Assembly: GCF_034479375.1 (NCBI RefSeq)
Contig: NZ_CP140155.1
Coordinates: forward strand, 1,798,001 to 1,862,000
Direction: 5' to 3'
DNA from: Rhodopseudomonas palustris
GTDB taxonomy: Bacteria > Pseudomonadota > Alphaproteobacteria > Rhizobiales > Xanthobacteraceae
DNA length: 64,000 bases
Program-made: the position numbers and the translations under genes
The notes under the pieces: model-generated
Database searches by the model: none
Told to the model about the DNA's origin: nothing
The model's input: the letters and a program-made list of their open reading frames with translations, nothing else
Shown: one piece after another, positions 8,420 to 45,207 of the stretch
Position numbering within the stretch: the first letter of the stretch is position 1
Layout: every line of letters starts with the position of its first letter

Positions 8420-9748
8420 TTACGACTTCGCCGCGCGCAGCTTCGCCCAATAGTCCAGCCGCTTCCTGATCTCGCGTTCGAAGCCGCGGTCGGGCGGGTC
8501 GTAAAACGTCTGATGTCCGAGCGCGTCCGGGAAGTACTCCTGGCCGGAGAAGCCCTCCGGCGTGTCGTGGTCGTATTGATAGCCGCCGCCATAGCCTTCG
8601 GATTTCATCAGCCCGGTCGGCGCATTCAGGATGTGCTTGGGCGGAAGCAAGCTGCCGCCCTGCTTCGCCGCGCGCATCGCGGCCTTGTAGGCGGTGTAGG
8701 CGGCGTTGGATTTCGGCGCGGTGGCGAGATAGATCACCGCCTGGGCGATCGCCAGTTCGCCCTCCGGCGAGCCGAGGAAGTCGTAGGCGTCCTTCGCGGC
8801 GTTGCAGATCACCAGCGCCTGCGGATCGGCGAGACCGATGTCCTCGACCGCCATCCGCACCACGCGCCGCGCCAGAAACAACGGATCCTCGCCGGCGTCG
8901 AACATCCGGCATAGATAGTACAGCGCCGCGTCCGGATCGGAGCCGCGCACGGATTTATGCAGCGCCGAGATCAGATTGTAGTGGCCGTCGGCGCCCTTGT
9001 CGTAGATCGGCGCGCGGCGCTGCAGGATCTCCTGGAGCTGCGCGGCGTTGAACACCTCGCCCTCGCGCGCCGAGCGCCAGACTTCTTCGGCCAGTGTCAG
9101 CGAGGCGCGGCCGTCGCCGTCGGCCATCCGCACCAGCACCGCCCGCGCCTCGGCGTCGAGCGGCAGCGTCCGACCTTCGGCCGCTTCCGCATGGACGAAC
9201 AGTTGCTCGATGGCGTCGGCATCGAGCGACTGGAACACCAGCACGCGCGCGCGTGAGAGAAGCGCCGCGTTGAGTTCGAACGACGGATTTTCGGTGGTGG
9301 CGCCGACCAGCACCACGGTGCCGTCTTCCATCACCGGCAGAAACGAGTCCTGCTGCGCCTTGTTGAAGCGGTGCACCTCGTCGACGAACAATAGCGTGCC
9401 GCGGCCCATCTCGCGGCGCGCGCGCGCGGCGTCGAACACTTTCTTCAGATCGGCGACGCCGGAGAACACCGCGGAGATCTGCTCGAAATGCAGCTCGGTG
9501 GCGTCGGCCAAAAGCCGCGCGACGGTGGTCTTGCCGGTGCCGGGCGGGCCCCAGAACACCAGCGAGCCGAGCGTCCGCGTCGCCAGCATCCGCGTCAGCG
9601 CGCCGTCGGGGCCGAGGATGTGGTCCTGGCCGACGACGTCACCGAGCGCGCGCGGCCGCAGCCGGTCCGGCAACGGCCGCGGCGCCTCGCGCTCGAGCCC
9701 CGCGGCGGCGAACAGGTTGGACGATGGCGTCGGGCGCTTGGGACTCAT
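8420..9748 (-). CDS. rarA: Replication-associated recombination AAA+ ATPase RarA (MgsA)
   Basis: 442 residues, typical length. Walker A GPPGTGKTT lies at residues 67-75 and Walker B FVDEVHRF near 121-128. Sensor and arginine-finger blocks follow (VGATTENPSFELNAALLSRARV). The C-terminal tetramerisation region ends with the family block GYGGGYQYDHDTPEGFSGQEYFPD. RarA acts at stalled forks and single-strand gaps, with SSB and RecA pathways in other bacteria. It may be co-transcribed after the Do-family protease upstream, though a 241-bp repeat-bearing gap separates them. Confidence 0.95.
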   Translation of the reverse strand: MSPKRPTPSSNLFAAAGLEREAPRPLPDRLRPRALGDVVGQDHILGPDGALTRMLATRTLGSLVFWGPPGTGKTTVARLLADATELHFEQISAVFSGVADLKKVFDAARARREMGRGTLLFVDEVHRFNKAQQDSFLPVMEDGTVVLVGATTENPSFELNAALLSRARVLVFQSLDADAIEQLFVHAEAAEGRTLPLDAEARAVLVRMADGDGRASLTLAEEVWRSAREGEVFNAAQLQEILQRRAPIYDKGADGHYNLISALHKSVRGSDPDAALYYLCRMFDAGEDPLFLARRVVRMAVEDIGLADPQALVICNAAKDAYDFLGSPEGELAIAQAVIYLATAPKSNAAYTAYKAAMRAAKQGGSLLPPKHILNAPTGLMKSEGYGGGYQYDHDTPEGFSGQEYFPDALGHQTFYDPPDRGFEREIRKRLDYWAKLRAAKS

Positions 9749-9764
9749 GCGCCAGCCTGTTCGT

Positions 9765-9965
9765 TGGAGAAGGGGCGCGTTCTCCCAGCCGCTGCCTGCT
9801 CCCTCGCCCCACTCTTCGCGGGGAGAGGGGTGGGGTGAGGGGCAGCCACTTGTCGCAGCGGCACGACTTCGACCTCACGCAGAGGCTCGGCCGTGTCGAA
9901 ACGCCCCCTCACCCGGTCATCGAACTGCGTTCGCTGACCGACCTCTCCCCGCGCGCCGGGAGAGG
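9765..9965. repeat. Dispersed inverted repeat, family D (rarA-protease gap)
   Basis: The segment holds ctctccccgcgaagagtgggg-like inverted sequence, with cactcttcgcggggagaggggtggggtgagggg on the left and ccccctcacccgg...gacctctccccgcgcgccgggagagg on the right. The two halves are complementary over ggtgaggggg / cccctcacc. It looks like a mobile palindromic repeat; no gene is inside. Confidence 0.55.
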
Positions 9966-9989
9966 TGAAGAGGCGCGCGTGACGCATAC

Positions 9990-11381
9990 TCATCCGCCGA
10001 GCGTGACGTTGATCTGCTGGCCGCCGCGGACGACGGTGATGCGCCACAGGCGGAACGACTCGTTGGTGATGCGCTCGAGGTCGCTGGTCTTGGCGATGCG
10101 CTTGTTGTTGACCGCGACGATGATGTCGCCCTTCTGGAAGCCGACGCTCGCCGCGGTGGCGCCGTCGGCGAGTTCGGTGACGACCACGCCTTCGACGCTG
10201 GGGTCGAGCCGCAATTCGTCGGCGATCGCCGGCGAGATGTTGGCGATCCTGGCGCCCTGGAACGGCGAACGCGCGGTCAGCACGATCTCGTCGCGGCCGG
10301 TGTCGGGCGCGGTCTCAAGCGTGATCGTCAGCTTCACCGGCTTGCCGCCGCGCTGCACGTCGATCTGCGCGGTGCCGCCGAGCGGGCGCGTCGCGAAGCG
10401 ATAGTCGAACGCGTTGGGATCGTCGATCGCAAAGCCGTCGACCGCGACGATCAGGTCGGACAGTTTCAGCCCGGCCTTCTCCGACGGACTACCCTTGCTG
10501 ACGCTCGCGACCAGCGCGCCGCTCGGCCGCTTCAGGCCGAGCGTCTCGGCGATCTCCGGCGTCACCGCCTGCAACCGCGCGCCGAGCCACGGCCGCTTCA
10601 CCGCCTTGCCGCCGCTCTTGGCCGAGGCCACCACCACGCGCACCATATTGGCCGGGATCGCGAAGCCGATGCCCTGCGAGCCGCCCGAGCGCGAGAAAAT
10701 GGCGGTGTTGATGCCGACCAGCTTGCCGGTCATGTCGACCAGCGCGCCGCCGGAATTGCCGGGATTGATCGCCGCGTCGGTCTGGATGAAGAACTGATAG
10801 TCGGTGATGCCGACCTGGGTGCGCGCCAGCGCCGAGACGATGCCGTGGGTCACGGTCTGGCCGACGCCGAACGGATTGCCGATTGCCAGCACCAGGTCGC
10901 CGACCAGCAGTTCGTCGGAATTGGCGAAATCGAGCGTGGCGAACTTCTCCTTGGTGTCCTTGAGGCGCAGCACCGCGAGGTCGGTGCGGCTGTCCTTCAG
11001 CACGATCTCGGCCTCGAATTCACGCTTGTCGGCAAGCGCCACCTTGACCTGATCGGCGCCCTCGATGACGTGGTTGTTGGTGACGACCAGGCCCGAGGCA
11101 TCGACCATCACGCCCGAGCCGAGCGAGCGCTGGATCTGCTCCGGCTGCGGGCCGCCGCCGAAGAAGCGGCGGAAGATCGGATCTTCCAAGAGCGGATTGC
11201 GGTTCTGCACCACCTTGGCGGCGTAGACGTTCACCACCGCCGGCTGCGCGTGCTGCACGATCGGCGCGTAGCTGAGCTTGATCTCGGCCTGCGAGGCCGG
11301 CAGCCGCCGCTCCTGCGCCAGCGCGGGCAGCGCAGTCGCGAGCGAAAGCACGATTGCCGTGAAAATGCGGACAGCAGACAT
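9990..11381 (-). CDS. Do-family (DegP/HtrA-like) periplasmic serine protease
   Basis: 463 residues from the ATG at 11381, chosen because it begins the signal peptide (SAVRIFTAIVLSLATALPALA); the upstream extension looks non-coding. The catalytic triad is H104 (VTNNHVIEG), D134 (DSRTDLAVL) and S210 (NPGNSGGALVD). Two PDZ domains follow, around residues 280-370 and 385-463 (GASVAS-like groove GALVASVSKGSPSEKAGLK, and VVVTELADGATAASVGFQKGDIIVAVN). Homologues degrade or chaperone misfolded envelope proteins. The domain order fits DegQ/DegP; which paralogue cannot be decided. Confidence 0.92.
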   Translation of the reverse strand: MSAVRIFTAIVLSLATALPALAQERRLPASQAEIKLSYAPIVQHAQPAVVNVYAAKVVQNRNPLLEDPIFRRFFGGGPQPEQIQRSLGSGVMVDASGLVVTNNHVIEGADQVKVALADKREFEAEIVLKDSRTDLAVLRLKDTKEKFATLDFANSDELLVGDLVLAIGNPFGVGQTVTHGIVSALARTQVGITDYQFFIQTDAAINPGNSGGALVDMTGKLVGINTAIFSRSGGSQGIGFAIPANMVRVVVASAKSGGKAVKRPWLGARLQAVTPEIAETLGLKRPSGALVASVSKGSPSEKAGLKLSDLIVAVDGFAIDDPNAFDYRFATRPLGGTAQIDVQRGGKPVKLTITLETAPDTGRDEIVLTARSPFQGARIANISPAIADELRLDPSVEGVVVTELADGATAASVGFQKGDIIVAVNNKRIAKTSDLERITNESFRLWRITVVRGGQQINVTLGG

Positions 11382-32994: not shown

Positions 32995-33398
32995 CTTCGC
33001 CTTCACCCTTAGCTTCACGCGAAACCTTTATGGGGCCTCGCAAAATTCGTTCGGGGCACCCGCCCCAGCGGCCGCCTCGCAGGATCGGAGCAAGTCCGAT
33101 CGCGCAAAGCGAAATCGCGCCAGCCACTCATTGCTGAGCGGAAAGCGCTTCCATGCAACAGAGGACCGCAGCAAAGTCCGGACAGCGTCTGCTGACCGGC
33201 CTCGTACCGAGGTCATGCTTCCAAAACAGTCCTCAGGAGATCGAAACTCCGGAGAACGATGAACGTCCTGGCATTGCCTGGCTTATAGAGACAGCGTTTG
33301 AGCGTCTTGGGTCGAGGTTGGTGCCCGAAGTCCGTGAAGACGTCCGGGTGGTCCGTTCCGACGTTGGCGAAGCTCACCGCCTGTCTTGAAGTGGCCGG
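32995..33398 (-). promoter_or_regulatory. Long untranslated leader of the str operon
   Basis: About 400 bases separate the predicted start point near 33390 from the rpsL ATG. No gene of quality is inside. The minus strand contains ATTTCGCTTTGCGCGAT (33105-33121) and a CCGGAGTTT...CTCCTGAGG stretch that could pair locally. Such length suggests a regulated leader; no known riboswitch was recognised. Confidence 0.4.
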
Positions 33399-33427
33399 GT
33401 TTTATCGGCGCAGGCCCCGCAAGTCAA
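33399..33427 (-). promoter_or_regulatory. Strong sigma-70-type promoter of the str operon
   Basis: On the minus strand TTGACT (33422-33427) is followed after exactly 17 bases by TAAAAC (33399-33404). It is the best promoter-like site upstream of rpsL and has the same spacing and -10 style (TAAAAN) as the site before secE (60581-60609). Confidence 0.72.
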
Positions 33428-33797
33428 GGCAAAACCGCGCATTCGCCGTCGTTCGGGGGCCGCGCGCCGGTCCACCCTCCGTTTGCGCGAAATGCCCGCC
33501 ATATAAGGCTTTTCGAGGGGTCGCGGAGAGCGGAGAAAGCGTGCTTCGGGGGACGCTGCGATGGCGCCCGGGCGCGCGATCCGGCGCGGGAAGCACCGGT
33601 TTCGGCAGAATCGGTCATGCAACCGTCGTATCCGCGCCCTGCAGGCAGCCCGAGTCGCGTTAACGATTCGTGACCGGCGATTTCCCCCGCTGTCCGGACT
33701 TGCCGCGGTCTCCCGCCATTGCAACCCGGCCGGCCGGCGTGCTTACTGATTCTGCCCGGCGGCGTTCCGATCGTGCCGGCGAGAGGGCGGCCGATCC
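33428..33797. other. Divergent intergenic region, no gene seen
   Basis: This lies between the str promoter and the start of the frameshifted barrel gene on the plus strand. It is GC-rich with overlapping open frames on both strands that all look like shadows. It presumably holds the promoter for the plus-strand gene, which I could not identify. Confidence 0.35.
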
Positions 33798-34738
33798 GTG
33801 ACAGCGTGGCGGAGCGATCAGGCGAGCAGGCGGCCCGCATCCGGCGCCAGCGCGCGGCATGCGGGCATCGCGGTGCGCGTGGCCGTGGCGACGCTGGTCG
33901 CGCTGCAGCTTCCCGCTTTCGCCTTCGCCGCGGATTCGGACGACGACGATGCCCCCGCCAAGCCCAGCGCGCCGCAAGTCTATCTCGATCTGCGCAGCTA
34001 TTATTCGCGGGTTCCGGCCGGCGCGCTGTCGATCGGCTTCAGCCATCCCTCAGGGGTGCTGTCGCAATTGAGGTCGCTGGCCGCCCTGCCCGCGCCGTCG
34101 CTGCCGTCCAGCCAGGGCGTCGGGTTCGATGTGCCGCTGACGGTGGACGTCAACGACCAGGTCTCGCTGTATGGCGGCTTCAGCGCCACCGCCTCGAAGG
34201 CCGGCGATTTCGACTGGACCGCGGTCGCGATCACGAGCTGGAACGTCGGCGTTCAGGCCGACATCCATCAGCAGAACGGCGGCGCGATCCCGACGCTGAC
34301 GCTGCAATCCACCCTGACCCGCGCGGTGCCGTCCGGGCCGCTGGCGACCACGTCGCTGAATACCATCCTGGAGGCGAGCTACGCGCTCGCGCCGACGAGA
34401 CCCGCGGATTTCTCGCCGGCGTGCAATCGACGCTGACCGCGATCGACGCCGACCGCGCCGAGATCCGGCCCAACTGGGTCGGCTGGCTCGGCGGCTATTA
34501 TCAATGGGAGAACAACTGGAAGGCGACGGGCCGCGCCGGCGTGCAGTCGTTCGGGGGCGCGCAGCTCCTCGCCCTGACGCCGATCGCGGCCTTCACCCAG
34601 CCGATCCTGCGGTTCGATCTCGACCGCATGGACGATAACGACAACCGCCTGTTCGGCGTCACCGCCCAGATCGCCTGGACGCCGAAGCCGGCCTATCAGC
34701 TCATCCTGCGGACGCCGCTGTATTTGACGAAGAACTGA
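33798..34738 (+). pseudogene. Outer-membrane beta-barrel-like protein, frameshifted
   Basis: Read across two frames this makes one coherent protein of about 310 residues. The first frame (33798-34436) gives a signal peptide (VRVAVATLVALQLPAFAFA), an Asp-rich start (DSDDDD) and alternating-strand sequence ending LNTILEASYAL. Near 34385-34410 coding continues in another frame (DETRGFLAGVQSTLTAI ... GWLGGYYQWENNWKATGRAGVQSFGG ... TPLYLTKN). A one-base change is enough to join them. It could be a decayed porin-like gene, a sequencing error, or a phase-variable site, though no homopolymer is present. Function unknown. Confidence 0.7.
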
Positions 34739-34801: not shown

Positions 34802-36073
34802 CTAGAATGAATACTCCACGCCGAACGTCATGCCTTGGAACAGCGTGCCGGAGCGGTGATTGACGCCCTGCGCGGTGACGCTGCTCGGCGTCGTCGAGGT
34901 CTGCTGAATCTGGCCCGGGGCAAGCGCGACGCCGTCTAACCACAGCGCCGCGTAGCCGAGCTTGAGCGCGGCGGCCTCGGTGATGCGATATTTCGCCACC
35001 AGCCCACCCTCGGCGACGAACGCCGCGGCGCTGCTGGCAGCCTCTGCCGGATAGATCTGCTTCTGCATGCTCACCAGCGTGAGCTGCCTGGCACGATTGT
35101 CGTACACGCCGGCCTTGATCGTTGCGTCGAGGGAGAAGCGGCCGGCTTCCCAGAGCGCTGCATTGGCGCCGATCTGAATGCCGTAGAGATCGTTGGTGGT
35201 CTCGGTCGTCCAGAACGGAGGATTGGCGACGATCGGACTGCCGGCGACCGGCACCGCATCCGACAGCCGGCTCGGAATGGTGAACTTCCACATCGGCTGG
35301 CCCAGATCGGCCGGATCGAGCGTGCCTTCGAGCCTGTCGCGCAATTGCAGCCAGCGAACGCCCGCCAGCAATGTGACGCGTGGCGACAGCTCCAGCCGGG
35401 CATTGGCCTCGAGGCTGTGCAGGCGGGTGTCGCTCTGCCACACCATCGACTGGTAGGCGTAGTCCTGGGTCTGCCAGAACGTGCCGGGGGCCTTCATCAC
35501 CAGCCATTGCCCCGGGTTCTCGGGCCCGGTGGCCTTGGCGACCTTCAGCCCGAGCACACCAAAATACGACAGCTCGGCGCCGATGCCGGACGGATCGCGA
35601 TATGCGAGGCCGAGCTTCTGTCCGGCTGCGAGACGCTGGCCGAGCTGGCCGCTGTTCAGGGCTTCGACGCCGGGGACGTTGGTGGTGTTCGGGCCGGTGG
35701 GCGTCCACCAGTACACGTCGCCGGGGACGAGCGACACCAGCGGCTGACGACCCGCGCCGGAGCGACCGAGAAACAGCGCTTCGGCGGAGACCGTCCAGCG
35801 CGGCGCGCTGATCGGCTGACGAGGCAACACCGGACGCGCGCGCAGCGAGCCGTCGTCGGCCTTGGCCGATGCCGCGGCCCGGGCGTTCAGGTCCTCGGCG
35901 GCCGCCGCGGACGGCAGCATCAGCGCAGCCATCGCCGCCAGCAGAGCCGCAGCGAACCAACGGCGTCGATCGCGCGTCGATGACCGGAATTCGGGCCGCG
36001 GTCGCGGTCGGGCCGCTGGAGCGCATCCGCAGACCGTCCCGTCCTGCTCGCTGTCAGTCCGACGCAACGCCAT
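34802..36073 (-). CDS. BBP7-like outer-membrane beta-barrel protein
   Basis: 423 residues. A basic N-terminus precedes a signal segment (RRRWFAAALLAAMAALMLPSAAAAEDL). The mature part has amphipathic strands and aromatic girdles, for example WTVSAEALFLGRSGAGRQPLV, RDPSGIGAELSYFGVLG, LELSPRVTLLAGVRWLQLRDRLEGTL and the final strand GMTFGVEYSF ending in Phe, the usual barrel-assembly signal. The pattern EALFL.R and GVRWL.L.D fits the BBP7 family. It is convergent with the frameshifted barrel gene and lies 324 bases downstream of the ABC transporter on the same strand. Confidence 0.7.
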   Translation of the reverse strand: MALRRTDSEQDGTVCGCAPAARPRPRPEFRSSTRDRRRWFAAALLAAMAALMLPSAAAAEDLNARAAASAKADDGSLRARPVLPRQPISAPRWTVSAEALFLGRSGAGRQPLVSLVPGDVYWWTPTGPNTTNVPGVEALNSGQLGQRLAAGQKLGLAYRDPSGIGAELSYFGVLGLKVAKATGPENPGQWLVMKAPGTFWQTQDYAYQSMVWQSDTRLHSLEANARLELSPRVTLLAGVRWLQLRDRLEGTLDPADLGQPMWKFTIPSRLSDAVPVAGSPIVANPPFWTTETTNDLYGIQIGANAALWEAGRFSLDATIKAGVYDNRARQLTLVSMQKQIYPAEAASSAAAFVAEGGLVAKYRITEAAALKLGYAALWLDGVALAPGQIQQTSTTPSSVTAQGVNHRSGTLFQGMTFGVEYSF

Positions 36074-36397
36074 TGGCCGGATACTCTCGTCTCAGCCCCG
36101 TCGTCGCCGGAGCTGCTGCGACTGGTTACCGGCAGCCTGCGTTCGGTTCGCGTGCGATGCCGAATGCGAAGGTCCGAGCGCTTTGACGCAGACGGCCCCC
36201 CCATGGAGCACATCCTTGCATCGGCGAAGCCCGATTCGGAGCCTCGTGCGTCTACCTACTTCGATCGAGCAGATCGGAACTCGGCGCGCGATGGCCCCTG
36301 CCCGGCCCTTGCAGTCGCGAAGCGATCGACGCCGTGCATACCGATCGCCAGGATCGGCAGCCTGGGACCCGGGAGAGATCCGTCGATCCGTACCAGA
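36074..36397. other. Gap between ABC transporter and BBP7-like gene, nothing recognised
   Basis: There is no gene or clear terminator. It may contain a promoter for the minus-strand barrel gene; no consensus match stood out. Confidence 0.35.
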
Positions 36398-38515
36398 TCA
36401 ATCCTCCTCGTCGTCGTCATCATCATCGTCGTCATTCCGGCTGCCGTGGCGGCCGTGGGTCTGGTCGTCCCACAGCTTGCGATAGACGCCGTCCTTGGCC
36501 AGCAGTTCCTTGTGCGAGCCGCGCTCGATCGCCTGGCCGTTGGAAATGACGATGATCTCGTCCATCCCGACCACCGAGGCGAGCCGGTGGGTCGAGAAGA
36601 TCATGGTGCGGCCGCGCGCCAGCTTCAGCAGCGTCTTGTTGATCGCGGCTTCGGTGGTCTGGTCGAGCGCAGAGGTCGCCTCGTCGAGCAGCAGCACCGC
36701 CGGATCCCGCACGATCGCGCGGGCGATCGCGAGGCGCTGGCGCTGGCCGCCGGACAGCGTGTCGCCGCGCTCGCCGACCTGGGTGTCGTATTTGTCCGGG
36801 AGGCTCATGATGTAGCGGTGGATCTCGGCCTTCTTCGCCGCCGCGACCACCTCGGCGTCGGTGGCGCCCTCCTTGCCGAGCCGGATGTTCTCGCGGATCG
36901 ACATGTTGAACAGCATGTTCTCCTGGAACACCACGGCCATGCTCTGCCGCAACGAATCCAGCGTCACCTTGCGGACGTCGACGCCGTCGATGCTGACGCG
37001 GCCCTCGTCGGGCTGATACAGCCGCAGGATCAGGTTGAGCAGCGTGCTCTTGCCCGAGCCGCTGGGGCCGACGATGGCGATGGTCTTGCCGGCCTGCAGC
37101 TCGAGGCTGAGATTGTCCAGCACCGGCCGCTCCGCGCCCTCATAGCCGAACGTCACCCGCTCGAACGCGATGTTGTCGGTGATGCGCGGCAGCTCGGCGG
37201 CGCCCGGCCGGTCGGCGATCGGGACCGGCTCGTCGAGCATTTCCTCCATGTGGCGAACCGCGGCGGCGGCCTGGATCGCGACCGGGATGAACTGCATCAG
37301 ATGCGCGATGTTGTACGACACTTCCCAGAACGCGCTCTCGAAAGTGACGAAGGTGCCGACCGTGATCTGGCCCTTGGTGGCGAGATAGGCGCCGATCGCC
37401 AGCACCACGAGGTGCAGCAGCAGCACCGCGACGGTGACCGATCGCTCGACCATCGTGCGCAGGAACACCGCCTCGGCGATCTTGTTCCGCGTCGTGTTGT
37501 TGCGCAGCGTGAAGAAGCCGAACATCTTGCGCTGCAGGCTGAACGCCTTGACCACGGCCTGCGCGCCGACGCTCTCCTGCACCATGCCGAGCAGCCCGGC
37601 CTCCTGAACCTTCTGCTCGTAATTGGCCTTGACCGCCTTCGGCGTCAGGATGCGCGGGCCGATCAGCGTGATCGGGAAGATCAGGAGCGCGACCACGGCG
37701 AGCTGCCAGTTCAGGAACAGCATCAGGATGATGCCGGCGATCAGCTCGAGCAGCGGCAGCAGCGCGGTATTGGCGAAGATCTCGACCACGTTCTCGAACG
37801 CCGCCATGTCGATCGAGAACCGCGACAGCGTCTCGCCGCGCTTGGTGCGGGCGAAGTAGCCGGCCGGCAGGCGCTGGACGTGGTCGAACAGCCGGGTGCG
37901 CACGTCGCTGATCACCGCGGCGGCGAGCCGCGCGTCCCAGCGCTCGTACCAGATCGCCACGATCGACGTGATCACGCCGGCGACCGCGAGGATCGACAGG
38001 ATCTTGTAGAGTTCCTGGAAGTCCTCCTCGCCGAGCGCGTCGTCGATCAGGAACTTCAGGCTGAGCGGCATGATGACGTTGAACAGGGTTTCGACGACGA
38101 CGCCGAACACCACGATCGCGACCATCTTCCGGTAGTTCGGCAGGATCGGCCGCACTAACCGCGCCACCGTGGCGAGCGCGCCGGCGGCCTCGCGAGCGGT
38201 GAAGACGACGAGTTCCTCGTCGTCATCATCGTCGTCGTCCGCCGCTTCGTCCTCGTCGTCGTCATCATCATCGTCGTCGTCCGCCGCAGCCTTCGCGGGC
38301 GCCGGCGGCGTCTTGTCCTGGACGAGTTGCTTCAGCGGCGGCTTGGTGCCAGGAACCACGGCGGCGGTCTTGCCGACCGGCATCGCGAATTTCTCGTCGA
38401 GCGGCGACGCGGCGGCGTCGCCCTCGCCCGGTTTCGCGTCGGGAACGGCGGATTGATCAGCCGTCGGCGCGTCGGCCGGATCGGTCGGTGGCTTGGCAGG
38501 CGGCTTTCGGGCCAT
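36398..38515 (-). CDS. ABC exporter half-transporter (permease-ATPase fusion) with poly-Asp tracts
   Basis: 705 residues. Residues 1-78 are Pro/Ala-rich and 79-101 are almost pure Asp/Glu. A six-helix type-1 exporter domain spans about 120-420 (ETLFNVIMPLSLKFLIDDAL; WYERWDARLAAAVISDVRTRLFDHVQRLPAGYF). The ATPase domain has Walker A GPSGSGKST near 485, signature LSGGQRQRLAIARAI, Walker B LLLDEATSALD and H-loop STHR. The C-terminus ends in a second acidic run (residues about 695-705). Exporters of this MsbA/HlyB-like class move lipids, peptides or small molecules; the substrate is unknown. It is probably co-transcribed with the flavoprotein-methyltransferase 127 bases upstream. Confidence 0.92.
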   Translation of the reverse strand: MARKPPAKPPTDPADAPTADQSAVPDAKPGEGDAAASPLDEKFAMPVGKTAAVVPGTKPPLKQLVQDKTPPAPAKAAADDDDDDDDDEDEAADDDDDDDEELVVFTAREAAGALATVARLVRPILPNYRKMVAIVVFGVVVETLFNVIMPLSLKFLIDDALGEEDFQELYKILSILAVAGVITSIVAIWYERWDARLAAAVISDVRTRLFDHVQRLPAGYFARTKRGETLSRFSIDMAAFENVVEIFANTALLPLLELIAGIILMLFLNWQLAVVALLIFPITLIGPRILTPKAVKANYEQKVQEAGLLGMVQESVGAQAVVKAFSLQRKMFGFFTLRNNTTRNKIAEAVFLRTMVERSVTVAVLLLHLVVLAIGAYLATKGQITVGTFVTFESAFWEVSYNIAHLMQFIPVAIQAAAAVRHMEEMLDEPVPIADRPGAAELPRITDNIAFERVTFGYEGAERPVLDNLSLELQAGKTIAIVGPSGSGKSTLLNLILRLYQPDEGRVSIDGVDVRKVTLDSLRQSMAVVFQENMLFNMSIRENIRLGKEGATDAEVVAAAKKAEIHRYIMSLPDKYDTQVGERGDTLSGGQRQRLAIARAIVRDPAVLLLDEATSALDQTTEAAINKTLLKLARGRTMIFSTHRLASVVGMDEIIVISNGQAIERGSHKELLAKDGVYRKLWDDQTHGRHGSRNDDDDDDDDEED

Positions 38516-38591
38516 GTATCGAACCGGGGGTCGAACCGTGGATGGACGGCCAGCACGACCGCAATGACGAGCGCCGTGACTCGTGAGCCAC

Positions 38592-38615
38592 GGCGTATCC
38601 TAAGGCGTATCCTAA
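38592..38615. repeat. Tandem 12-bp direct repeat
   Basis: GGCGTATCCTAA occurs twice back to back, between the fusion-enzyme stop and the ABC transporter start. Possible regulator site or slippage product. Confidence 0.7.
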
Positions 38616-38642
38616 GCTATCATCTCGAGGCCGGCAAAGCGC

Positions 38643-40703
38643 TCAGTCCTCGTCTTCGTCGTCGACCTTGTCGAAGAACGAATAGCGCAGGCTGTCGGCG
38701 TCGCCGTACCACTGGCCCGGGCCCTTGCCGGCCTTCAGGGTCGCTTCCCAGAGCTTGTCGCTCACGTCGTTGCGATGCATCGCCAGATCGAAGCCGTTGC
38801 TGAAGAACAGTTCCGACCACTCCCACCAGGTGCCGAGCTTCTTCACGCCGCGCAGCAGGTCGTAGCGGTCGATCACGCCCGGATCCATGTCGCTGGTCAC
38901 CGAGCCGAACACCAGGCCGGTGCGCGTCACCCGATTCAGTTCGCGGATCGCCTTGACGACGCGACTGTCCGGGACGTGGCACAGGCTGGTCTCGAACACG
39001 ATGTCGAACGAAGCGTCCTCGAACGGCAGATCGACGATCGAGCCGAACTGGTTGAACGGCTTCAGCGCCTCCGGCGTCCTGGCGAGGATGCCGCGGTTGT
39101 TGTCGACGCCCCAGGCGTCGATGCCGCGCTCGCGCAGCGCGCCGACCAGTTCGCCGCTGGCCGCGCCCGCGACCAGCAGTTTGACGCCCTGGGGCACGTC
39201 CCAGACCGTCCTGATCATCGCCAGCAGATAATCGGGGTCGGTGAACCGGCTCCAGACCTCGGCATACGGTCCCTGGTTGCGATAATTGGCGAAATACGAC
39301 GCGTCGATCTTGTCGGACGCCGCATTGCCGGCGAGCGCGCGGGCGCGGCGCAGCTTCATCGTCTCGGTGACGATGATGTCGGTGGCGGCGTCGGAGGAAT
39401 CCAGCAGGCCGTTCAGCGTCGAATCGAACAGATAGTCGCCGACCACGACGAAGCCCGGATGGTTCTTCGGCTCCGGCCGGTGATTGGTCATCACGTCGCG
39501 CGCCGGCAGGCCGCCGGGGATGCAGTTGACCGACGACAGCCAGCGATGGGTCTTTGATTCGAGAAAATGCTCGCGCGCGTCGCCGAACGCCGCCGGCAGC
39601 GACTTCAGCGCCAGGTCGGTCAGTTCGTCGTCGGTGAGGTTCGAGAACGCCAGCGCGTCGGAGCCTGCGACCAGGAAGTTCAGCACGCCGTATTTGCCGA
39701 CGTCGTGGCGCGCGCCCTCGTTGTAGACGCAGCAGCCGCCGAACGCTTCCGACATGAACCACGCGCCGGGGATCTTGTCGCCCCAGAACGGGCCGTCGAA
39801 CAAGAGCGAGATCCGCAGATAATGCGCGGGCCGGTCGAAATAGGCGACGTGCTTGACCATCGCCTTGCGGAGCTGTTCGTCGCCCCAGCCCAGCGTCGCG
39901 AGCCAGTTGTGCGGCAGGCACATCAGCACGAGATCGAAGTCGCGCGTCTCCGGCCCCTTGCCGTTCATCATGTTCAGCTCGTAGCGGCCGCTCTCGGTTT
40001 TGCCGACCTTGAGGATGCGGTGGTTGAGCTGGATCTCGGCGTCGACCTCGGAGCGCAGCCCCTCGATCAGTTGCTCGTTGCCGTTCTGGATCGAATACAG
40101 GCCGATATAGCCGTCGATATCCATCACGAAATTCTTCAGCGCGTTGAGGCCGTTGGTGTTGTGGCTCTCGGTGGCGATGTCGGACCGCGCCATCACCTTG
40201 AAGAAGCGCTTGGCGACCGGGTCGTCGATCTCCTTGTCGAGCAGTTGCTCGCAATTGGTCCAGGCCCAGGGATGTTCGTTGTCGTGCGCGCCGACGCCTT
40301 CGTAATATTCCAGCGGCGTCACCATCTCGCTGCAGGTCTTGCGGAAGGCGAGGATCGCGTCGGCGGTCTTGTCGCCGTATTTCCTGCGCATCCCCGGCAC
40401 GTCGTCGAGCAATTCGCCGTCGAGCTGGACCTGTTCGGCGTCCATCGGAATCGTCTGCAGCCCGAAATGCTGCACCAGTTCGCGCAGCGGGTCCGGCCCG
40501 GTCATCGAGTAGTCGTACAATTCGGCGACGCCGGCCTCGTACAGCGCCGGCGCGGTGTCGAAGGTGCGCGACACGATCTTGCCGCCGAGCCGGTCGGACG
40601 CCTCGAAGATCGTCACCCGGCACATCGGTCCGAGCTTCTTTTTCAGATACCAGGCGCTCATCAGTCCGCCCGGGCCGCCACCAACGATCGCAAGGTCAAA
40701 CAT
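38643..40703 (-). CDS. FAD-dependent amine-oxidase-like enzyme fused to a SAM methyltransferase
   Basis: 686 residues. Residues 1 to about 440 are a flavoprotein: GGGPGG dinucleotide motif (8-13) in FDLAIVGGGPGGLMSAWYL, FEASDRLGGKIVSR after strand 2, and the closing FAD motif GFVVVGDYLFDSTLNGLLDS. From about residue 480 a class I methyltransferase follows: motif I LLVAGAASGELVGAL near 505, acidic GVDNN, then DLPFEDASFDIVFE and a late AIRELNRVTRTGLVFGSV. Both halves look intact. The C-terminus ends VDDEDED. The first half resembles protoporphyrinogen- or carotenoid-type oxidases, but the substrate is unknown. The following ABC exporter suggests the product is exported (inference). Confidence 0.85.
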   Translation of the reverse strand: MFDLAIVGGGPGGLMSAWYLKKKLGPMCRVTIFEASDRLGGKIVSRTFDTAPALYEAGVAELYDYSMTGPDPLRELVQHFGLQTIPMDAEQVQLDGELLDDVPGMRRKYGDKTADAILAFRKTCSEMVTPLEYYEGVGAHDNEHPWAWTNCEQLLDKEIDDPVAKRFFKVMARSDIATESHNTNGLNALKNFVMDIDGYIGLYSIQNGNEQLIEGLRSEVDAEIQLNHRILKVGKTESGRYELNMMNGKGPETRDFDLVLMCLPHNWLATLGWGDEQLRKAMVKHVAYFDRPAHYLRISLLFDGPFWGDKIPGAWFMSEAFGGCCVYNEGARHDVGKYGVLNFLVAGSDALAFSNLTDDELTDLALKSLPAAFGDAREHFLESKTHRWLSSVNCIPGGLPARDVMTNHRPEPKNHPGFVVVGDYLFDSTLNGLLDSSDAATDIIVTETMKLRRARALAGNAASDKIDASYFANYRNQGPYAEVWSRFTDPDYLLAMIRTVWDVPQGVKLLVAGAASGELVGALRERGIDAWGVDNNRGILARTPEALKPFNQFGSIVDLPFEDASFDIVFETSLCHVPDSRVVKAIRELNRVTRTGLVFGSVTSDMDPGVIDRYDLLRGVKKLGTWWEWSELFFSNGFDLAMHRNDVSDKLWEATLKAGKGPGQWYGDADSLRYSFFDKVDDEDED

Positions 40704-40950
40704 CTGGTTCTTTCAACACATCGGCGCAGGCCGTCCGGCCGCGCGCAGCCATACCCGATCCGCCCCGCCGGCGCACGGCAGACCGATTCTGTGCGAAAAT
40801 CAGCTTATATTCAAAGACTTAACGCTGATTTTGGCGCGGAATCCGCGCTCCCGGAGCACGGATCGCATCGTTCATGAACAGCAAGGCGGCTTTCACCTGA
40901 AGGAAACATGAACGGACCGTAATGCGTAGCCCCAAAAGCCGGGCAGATGC
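40704..40950. other. Upstream region of the fusion-enzyme gene
   Basis: No gene. It holds an AT-rich dyad (40796-40832) and, farther up, the palindrome TTCATGAA at 40872-40879. It is bounded on the right by the rpoC terminator. Confidence 0.5.
40796..40832. promoter_or_regulatory. AT-rich inverted repeat, candidate operator/promoter of the fusion-enzyme gene
   Basis: Perfect 9-bp arms AAAATCAGC (40796-40804) and GCTGATTTT (40824-40832). The spacer on the minus strand contains TATAAG, usable as a -10 box for the gene starting at 40703. A regulator binding the dyad would block that -10. Confidence 0.5.
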
Positions 40951-40974
40951 AAAAAAGGCCGGCTTTCGCCGGCC
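40951..40974 (-). terminator. Intrinsic terminator after rpoC
   Basis: On the minus strand a GGCCGGC-GAAA-GCCGGCC hairpin is followed by six T residues, about 30 bases beyond the rpoC stop codon. Confidence 0.92.
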
Positions 40975-41004
40975 TTCTTCAGATTGCATCGCAGCAGCGG
41001 CGCC

Positions 41005-45207
<4,203 letters not shown>

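Follow-up and report, generated by a model that had tools for sequence, protein, structure and literature searches.

Flavin amine oxidases, a superfamily that spans putrescine oxidase, monoamine oxidase (MAO) and the L-amino acid oxidases, are by sequence profile of the same family as the oxidoreductase considered here, which departs from them in being fused to a methyltransferase and in carrying arginine (Arg297) where putrescine oxidase has lysine. Joint action of a flavoprotein and a methyltransferase on one lipid characterizes the Tms/Ufa enzymes, known from methyl-branched or furan fatty acids; these presumably belong to other protein families than the pair described herein. MnmC combines an oxidase domain of the DAO type with a methyltransferase domain of the MnmC type. 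The excerpt of PMC9976899 describes MnmC as a single protein in which an oxidative step is followed by methylation on one base. The enzyme studied here likewise unites oxidizing and methylating domains in one protein, but draws them from other Pfam families (Methyltransf_11/25 are found here) and has an exporter as its partner. Finally, half-exporters of the MsbA/Sav1866 type share with this partner the order of membrane domain, then ATPase, and a full-length profile match, whereas the long acidic tracts at both of its ends, its oxidase-methyltransferase neighbor and its scores below the NCBIfam cut-offs set it apart.

Domains and acidic tracts of the enzyme and exporter

The pair lies in a 64,000-nucleotide stretch (the window) of the Rhodopseudomonas palustris genome, which comprises 5.3 Mb in one contig. 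As the original prediction had placed it, between the rpoC side and the str genes, rpoC is upstream and rpsL-rpsG-fusA-tuf downstream. The ORF list gives the following minus-strand reading frames, shown with the spacer between the first two:

38643..40703, minus strand, 686 aa: fusion of an FAD oxidoreductase (residues ~1-440) and a class I methyltransferase (~480-680), with an acidic C-terminal tail
38516..38642, minus strand: enzyme/exporter spacer of 127 bases, with no terminator-like site listed inside
36398..38515, minus strand, 705 aa: ABC half-exporter with membrane domain and ATPase, and with acidic tracts ahead of the membrane domain and at the C-terminal end
34802..36073, minus strand, 423 aa: BBP7-like ORF

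The arrangement first proposed, a fused enzyme followed on the same strand by an exporter 127 bases on and by a BBP7-like ORF 324 bases further (a spacer given by the ORF coordinates), was confirmed by the ORFs and by Pfam, with the best BBP7 stretch covering only residues 350-423 of the third ORF (32.5 bits versus a cut-off of 26). Its suggested place as third member of the unit did not hold: we reject it, as BBP7 adjoins the pair in just 4 of 26 pair-bearing genomes of the family (the window, L035, L037 and L044), a count in which one genome is barely tested because the L048 stretch stops 1.6 kb past the exporter.

Pfam places the first domain of the enzyme in the amine oxidase superfamily (Amino_oxidase over residues 12-432, 93.5 bits, cut-off 19.8, model positions 2-430 of 443) and matches Methyltransf_11 at residues 512-596 (39.2 bits, cut-off 21.2) as well as Methyltransf_25. 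This family model, together with G513, S516, G517 and D529, which are invariant in 11 sequences, identifies a class I SAM methyltransferase, and residues of both the FAD site and the SAM site are conserved in those sequences. All 18 NCBIfam matches of the enzyme fall under their cut-offs. By profile, the nearest solved relatives of the enzyme are putrescine oxidases (E 1.8e-11, profile residues 3-375), then L-amino acid and monoamine oxidases; the closest solved relative of its methyltransferase is LahSB, a lanthipeptide carboxyl methyltransferase. The lysine of the putrescine oxidase stretch LVIKVHAVYETPFW aligns to Arg297, and among the matches listed, in which some genomes are repeated, arginine occupies this position in 107 of 113 scanned sequences and lysine in none, the other six being without a pattern match. 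By this residue the enzyme does not fit the classical amine oxidases of the MAO or putrescine oxidase type, defined by lysine at ...IKxxxxYxxPFW. That lysine is presumably the conserved catalytic active-site residue of the class, so its replacement by arginine makes plain amine oxidation less likely.

The exporter contains ABC_membrane at residues 133-394 and ABC_tran at 466-615 (Pfam), and it retains conserved Walker A, LSGGQ and Walker B motifs, as in an ABC half-exporter. Full-length profile matches reach 423 bits for Sav1866 and ~360 bits for MsbA; eukaryotic double-length ABCB proteins total higher, as they hold two copies. The exporter also remains below all 25 NCBIfam cut-offs shown, and it is not an MsbA lipid A flippase by TIGR02203 (381 bits versus a cut-off of 602).

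Asp/Glu runs had been noticed at the ends of both proteins, and the translations bear this out (...DKVDDEDED in the enzyme and ...NDDDDDDDDEED in the exporter). Among the matches listed, an exporter tract of at least 8 D/E in 12 residues precedes the membrane domain at 92 of 97 loci, with N-terminal parts taken from stop to stop, so that true starts may lie later; such a tract closes the protein at 90 of 97, the misses including L067 and L074, which stop within the gene. In the last 20 residues of the enzyme, four acidic residues of eight are reached at 78 of the 97 loci listed. The tracts differ in length and letters between loci yet remain acidic; they are shorter in Phreatobacter-type genomes, and L122 is without the C-terminal tract and L133 without either. 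Since two acidic proteins would hardly bind one another through such tails, the simplest guess is that the tracts on the exporter ends and the enzyme tail bind a cationic substrate, a metal or a basic partner.

These features bear on a reading in terms of membrane-lipid remodeling, which we regard as unlikely: the enzyme would oxidize and methylate a lipid (a fatty acid, a quinone or a hopanoid precursor), and an MsbA-like exporter would flip it. MsbA_rel (397 bits) is the top NCBIfam model of the exporter and MsbA (381 bits) the third, both below cut-off, but a peptide transporter ranks second, also below cut-off, so the scores name no substrate. Similarly, the FAD domain has weak N-terminal NCBIfam matches to protoporphyrinogen oxidase and HpnE, but these span mostly the common FAD-binding motif. 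Arg297 does point away from plain amine oxidation; on the other hand, a neutral lipid is not what the acidic tracts suggest.

A role in anti-phage defense was also considered and rejected, as the PADLOC hits (for the exporter, mads_3 at 110.6 bits, mads_8 at 42.5 bits and smaller matches; for the enzyme, a desaturase model at 20.1 bits and mads_2 at 17.1 bits) read as general similarity to ABC-ATPases, FAD proteins and methyltransferases.

Adjacency and distribution of the pair

Co-occurrence was scored in 101 genomes (the window's own and 100 relatives), with exporter orthologues called at E <= 1e-100 and 11 candidates scored per genome. A long enzyme match is present in 28 of them, 26 at an identity of at least 74% (in two pieces in G039) and two, G079 and G055, at 42%. 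Exporter orthologues occur in 27, which is the enzyme-bearing set minus G055, and in all 27 the two genes stand side by side, although these genomes mostly represent one clade and hence are not independent. In G039 (8.0 Mb, one contig; locus L056, positions 9040-11078), the enzyme gene is broken into two frames near residue 348. Named relatives are Rhodopseudomonas, Bradyrhizobium, Tardiphaga, Afipia and Nitrobacter, with Nitrobacteraceae as the family label where the tree gave one.

In each of the 26 family genomes, rpoC is upstream and the pair follows 0.2 to 4.1 kb behind it, and rpsL falls inside the retrieved stretch in 18 of the 26 (window included), the others having ended first or holding 5.6 to 6.4 kb without rpsL. 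A full-length rpoC match of at least 87% was found in 26 genomes, 25 of which carry the pair, as does G001 with its partial rpoC; G034 (rpoC 93%) yielded neither gene, showing other sequence behind rpoC until its contig ends 2.7 kb on. The pair is thus kept in 26 of the 27 sampled genomes nearest by rpoC, a group that includes soil symbionts, phototrophs and nitrifiers, and is probably useful across many habitats. Beyond the rpoC-close genomes of the 101-genome set, long enzyme matches occur nowhere except in G079 and G055, and near rpoC G055 has just two stretches of 31-33% ABC similarity. In outgroups G047, G048, G051 and G052, the ~0.6 to 3.6 kb that separate rpoC from rpsL do not contain the pair. 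Presence in the rpoC-close genomes and absence from this interval in the outgroups indicate that the pair probably entered the rpoC region in the clade ancestor and has rarely been lost.

A wider set joined the best 80 of at least 108 confirmed relatives to 27 further regions, and shares some genomes with the first (L059/G008, L108/G031, L126/G055). Among these best 80 and 27 regions, 91 loci are at least 70% identical, and the exporter adjoins the enzyme at 89 of them, L109 and L115 ending at a contig edge. Within the matches listed, rpoC is present at 89 of the 91 close loci (not at L109, nor at L123, which starts at a contig edge), both genes lie on the same strand at 97 of 97 loci that hold them (counting the window and a few genomes sampled twice), and the gap between them ranges from 1 to 321 bases with the choice of start. 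In even samples by class and by phylum, the enzyme occurs in 4 of 385 and 11 of 398 genomes, respectively (E <= 1e-60, own genome included), and no plasmid relatives were found at 1e-10. Trees of the two proteins agree on the main split only, with finer branching that differs in places (L046) and a long-branch warning; their distances correlate at 0.99 over 23 loci, a value owed mostly to common descent, which we do not take as proof.

Away from rpoC, the matches listed include adjacent pairs at 5 of 5 loci of Phreatobacter-type genomes, in a Hyphomonadaceae MAG (gap of 52 bases from an ATG start, or 1 base if the most upstream start is taken) and in a gammaproteobacterial MAG (gap of 19). The original prediction had read the two genes as one synthesis-and-export unit; the adjacency in all 27 exporter-bearing genomes, the shared strand and this recurrence in three separate lineages lend good support to a conserved enzyme-exporter unit.

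Alternatively, the two genes could serve different processes and stand together merely through joint ancestral insertion downstream of rpoC, where rearrangement is disfavored. The shared position of the pair in 26 of 26 family genomes, mostly reflecting one ancestral insertion, is what such a history would leave, but the same adjacency and order are seen in the three lineages away from rpoC, up to 4 kb has been inserted between rpoC and the pair at some loci and never inside the pair, and G034 is without both genes, though its contig ends shortly behind rpoC. We consider this explanation quite unlikely.

Among the matches listed, the exporter is next door at 7 of 16 low-identity loci (L058, L122, L128, L130, L131, L133 and L134) and missing at 9 (L057, L124, L126, L127, L129, L132, L136, L137 and L138; L057 and L126 are one genome). 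In exporter-less Xanthobacter, a Rhodospirillales MAG, Rhodoblastus, L141 and three Planctomycetes MAGs, the enzyme is followed by a protein of ~280 aa or more:

L126, 8168-9040; L137, 6010-6849; and others: ~280-aa protein with a C-terminal hydrophobic stretch, after the FAD enzyme

Pfam gave no match in the three such proteins scanned, and those of the Planctomycetes are only weakly alike (18-21% to the first aligned sequence), so that a single family is not proven. At the three Planctomycetes loci the enzyme match ends ahead of the methyltransferase, and neighbors include an HGSNAT-type acyltransferase (L136, L138) and an MFS transporter (L136, L137); matches to the FAD part only also occur in G1016, a second Planctomycetes-side genome, and in L154 (order of the Nostoc record; stop-interrupted). 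The FAD domain is thus the core, and its partners are repeatedly membrane or transport proteins. The FAD-only forms, with the exporter's absence from 9 of the 16 loci, count against a two-gene unit.

This variety of neighbors is relevant to a third alternative, modification of a macromolecule in the manner of MnmC, in which an FAD oxidoreductase and then a methyltransferase act on one tRNA base, here tied to the adjoining translation genes. The fused oxidoreductase-methyltransferase logic is the same and the gene does sit near translation genes in this clade, yet the protein families differ (DAO scores 21.6 bits in Pfam, below its cut-off of 27.9, and no MnmC model is among the 18 NCBIfam matches), an exporter partner would be unexpected, and elsewhere other neighbors surround the enzyme gene; we find this highly improbable. 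Least credible of all is tailoring and export of a ribosomal peptide (RiPP), which the LahSB relationship would favor, but which is opposed by an exporter without a peptidase domain (Pfam) and by the short ORFs of 17 loci: the 25 with the widest sharing are all situated in the interval from exporter to rpsL, many of them at the rpsL leader, and since none of these 25 falls between rpoC and exporter, a precursor peptide there was rejected.

A direct repeat upstream of the pair

Two elements precede the enzyme gene in the window:

40897..40913, minus strand: direct-repeat element GTTCATGTTTCCTTCAG (family consensus GTTCATCTTYCCTTCAG), the probable control site of the pair
40796..40832, no strand assigned: AT-rich dyad AAAATCAGC-N19-GCTGATTTT, conserved in part of Rhodopseudomonas only

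The distance from the beginning of the repeat, GTTCATCTTYCCTTCAG, to the enzyme start is 83 to 243 bases. The repeat was counted among the matches listed at 91 close loci, window included and L123 omitted because its stretch is too short: its 24-base form, with 4 or fewer mismatches allowed, occurs at 82 of 91, against 0 of 91 for the best of 20 single-base shuffles, and TTCA-N7-TTCA is kept at 90, the one miss (L046) having undetermined bases there. At L033, L034, L036, L038, L039 and L040, where 2.4 to 4.1 kb separate rpoC from the enzyme, the distance from element to enzyme is still 202 to 210 bases, so that the element goes with the pair rather than with rpoC. Searched genome-wide at up to 2 mismatches in 8 genomes, it has a single hit in six; G039 has two, and G014, from which L046 comes, has none. 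Each of the 7 genomes with a hit has one directly upstream of the enzyme gene. A looser form, GTTCASATTGCGTTCAG, is found at 4 of 5 Phreatobacter-type loci, differing from the 24-mer at 7 to 9 positions, versus 10 to 11 for the best shuffles. At L058, L128, L130 and L134, a looser copy of the repeat lies ~220 bases before the enzyme start, and no rpoC was found at those loci.

The element resembles the CenR repeat in that it holds TCA-N8-TCA, the reverse complement of TGA-N8-TGA; in Rhodobacter sphaeroides, according to the excerpt of PMC9275681, the CenR repeat is an upstream TGA-N8-TGA direct repeat. CenR was accordingly considered as regulator of the pair; the repeat would fit, but in L158, from the window's own genome, no such repeat was found in the first 1600 bases, including 1500 bases upstream of the tolQ match. 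The direct repeat is probably a control site of both genes.

The dyad fared less well. An AT-rich dyad with a -10-like box had been proposed ahead of the enzyme gene, and it does exist at the expected site, once in the window and in none of 100 shuffles, albeit with a pattern written after the site was seen. As a conserved promoter it did not stand: its arms are recognizable in part of Rhodopseudomonas only, where the TATA-like loop is unconserved, and we reject it as a shared promoter elsewhere. A simple sigma-70 scan of the minus strand over 36200-41100 returned no promoter-like site, and no known RNA was found in 36000-41200 at E 0.1. A hairpin and T run following rpoC at ~40950-40980 was read by eye and is absent from the scan listing.

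A putative tailoring and export cassette and its surroundings

Side-by-side retention in close and some distant relatives suggests that the pair together makes and exports one compound. It is reasonable to infer, from domain content and gene order, that one substrate is oxidized, methylated and then exported. First, the enzyme gene would yield a cytoplasmic two-domain tailoring enzyme, the FAD domain of which would take hydride from a small or amphipathic metabolite. Second, the attached SAM methyltransferase would methylate what the oxidation yields, probably working on the same molecule. The ABC half-exporter, presumably homodimeric, would then carry the finished compound from the cytoplasm or through the inner membrane, and the acidic tracts may bind metal ions, a basic partner or a substrate with positive charge. 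Finally, the single upstream direct-repeat site probably governs both genes, perhaps through one transcript; the 127-base spacer, which leaves space for an internal promoter, counts against a single-unit reading, as does the negative outcome of the simple sigma-70 scan on the gene strand. We lean toward this explanation as a whole, a two-gene cassette of tailoring enzyme and dedicated exporter under one control site, and hold it to be somewhat probable.

A more specific version is doubtful and offered tentatively: a system for an envelope component or secreted metabolite, typical of Nitrobacteraceae (Rhodopseudomonas, Bradyrhizobium, Afipia, Nitrobacter and Tardiphaga), in which an amine-oxidase fold with arginine for lysine performs a different oxidation chemistry, methylation is coupled in one polypeptide, the exporter recruits a charged product via flexible acidic tails, and a dedicated regulator has essentially one genomic site.

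Literature searches by text and by locus tag (Rhodopseudomonas and BBta tags being guessed), covering titles and abstract openings, returned no description of the pair, and no expression or essentiality data for it were found. The excerpt of a Bradyrhizobium Tn-seq paper names the RNA polymerase genes bll5409 and bll5410 (PMC8225791); bll5406, bll5407 and bll5408 had no match in a full-text literature search, and the excerpts of PMC8632152, PMC6320959 and PMC9561847 contain nothing on the pair.

Separately from the pair, the str operon has a strongly conserved non-coding leader upstream of rpsL (window 33100-33436, minus strand). Its DNA matches 74 of 108 searched sequences, window included, and Rfam gave no match to it in the window. 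RNAalifold on 18 aligned sequences predicts 67 pairs, of which 16 have both sides changed, and 97.7% of cells paired, in a structure derived from the same alignment, which favors it; none of 500 shuffles reaches any of five measures, and slid controls are 35-44% paired. The leader thus looks like an undescribed ribosomal-protein leader RNA; an rpsL motif is described in Pelagibacter in the excerpt of PMC2704228. Between this leader and the BBP7-like ORF, a gene with a signal-peptide-like start (window 33798-34738, plus strand) is out of frame here and forms a single open frame in the close relative L032.
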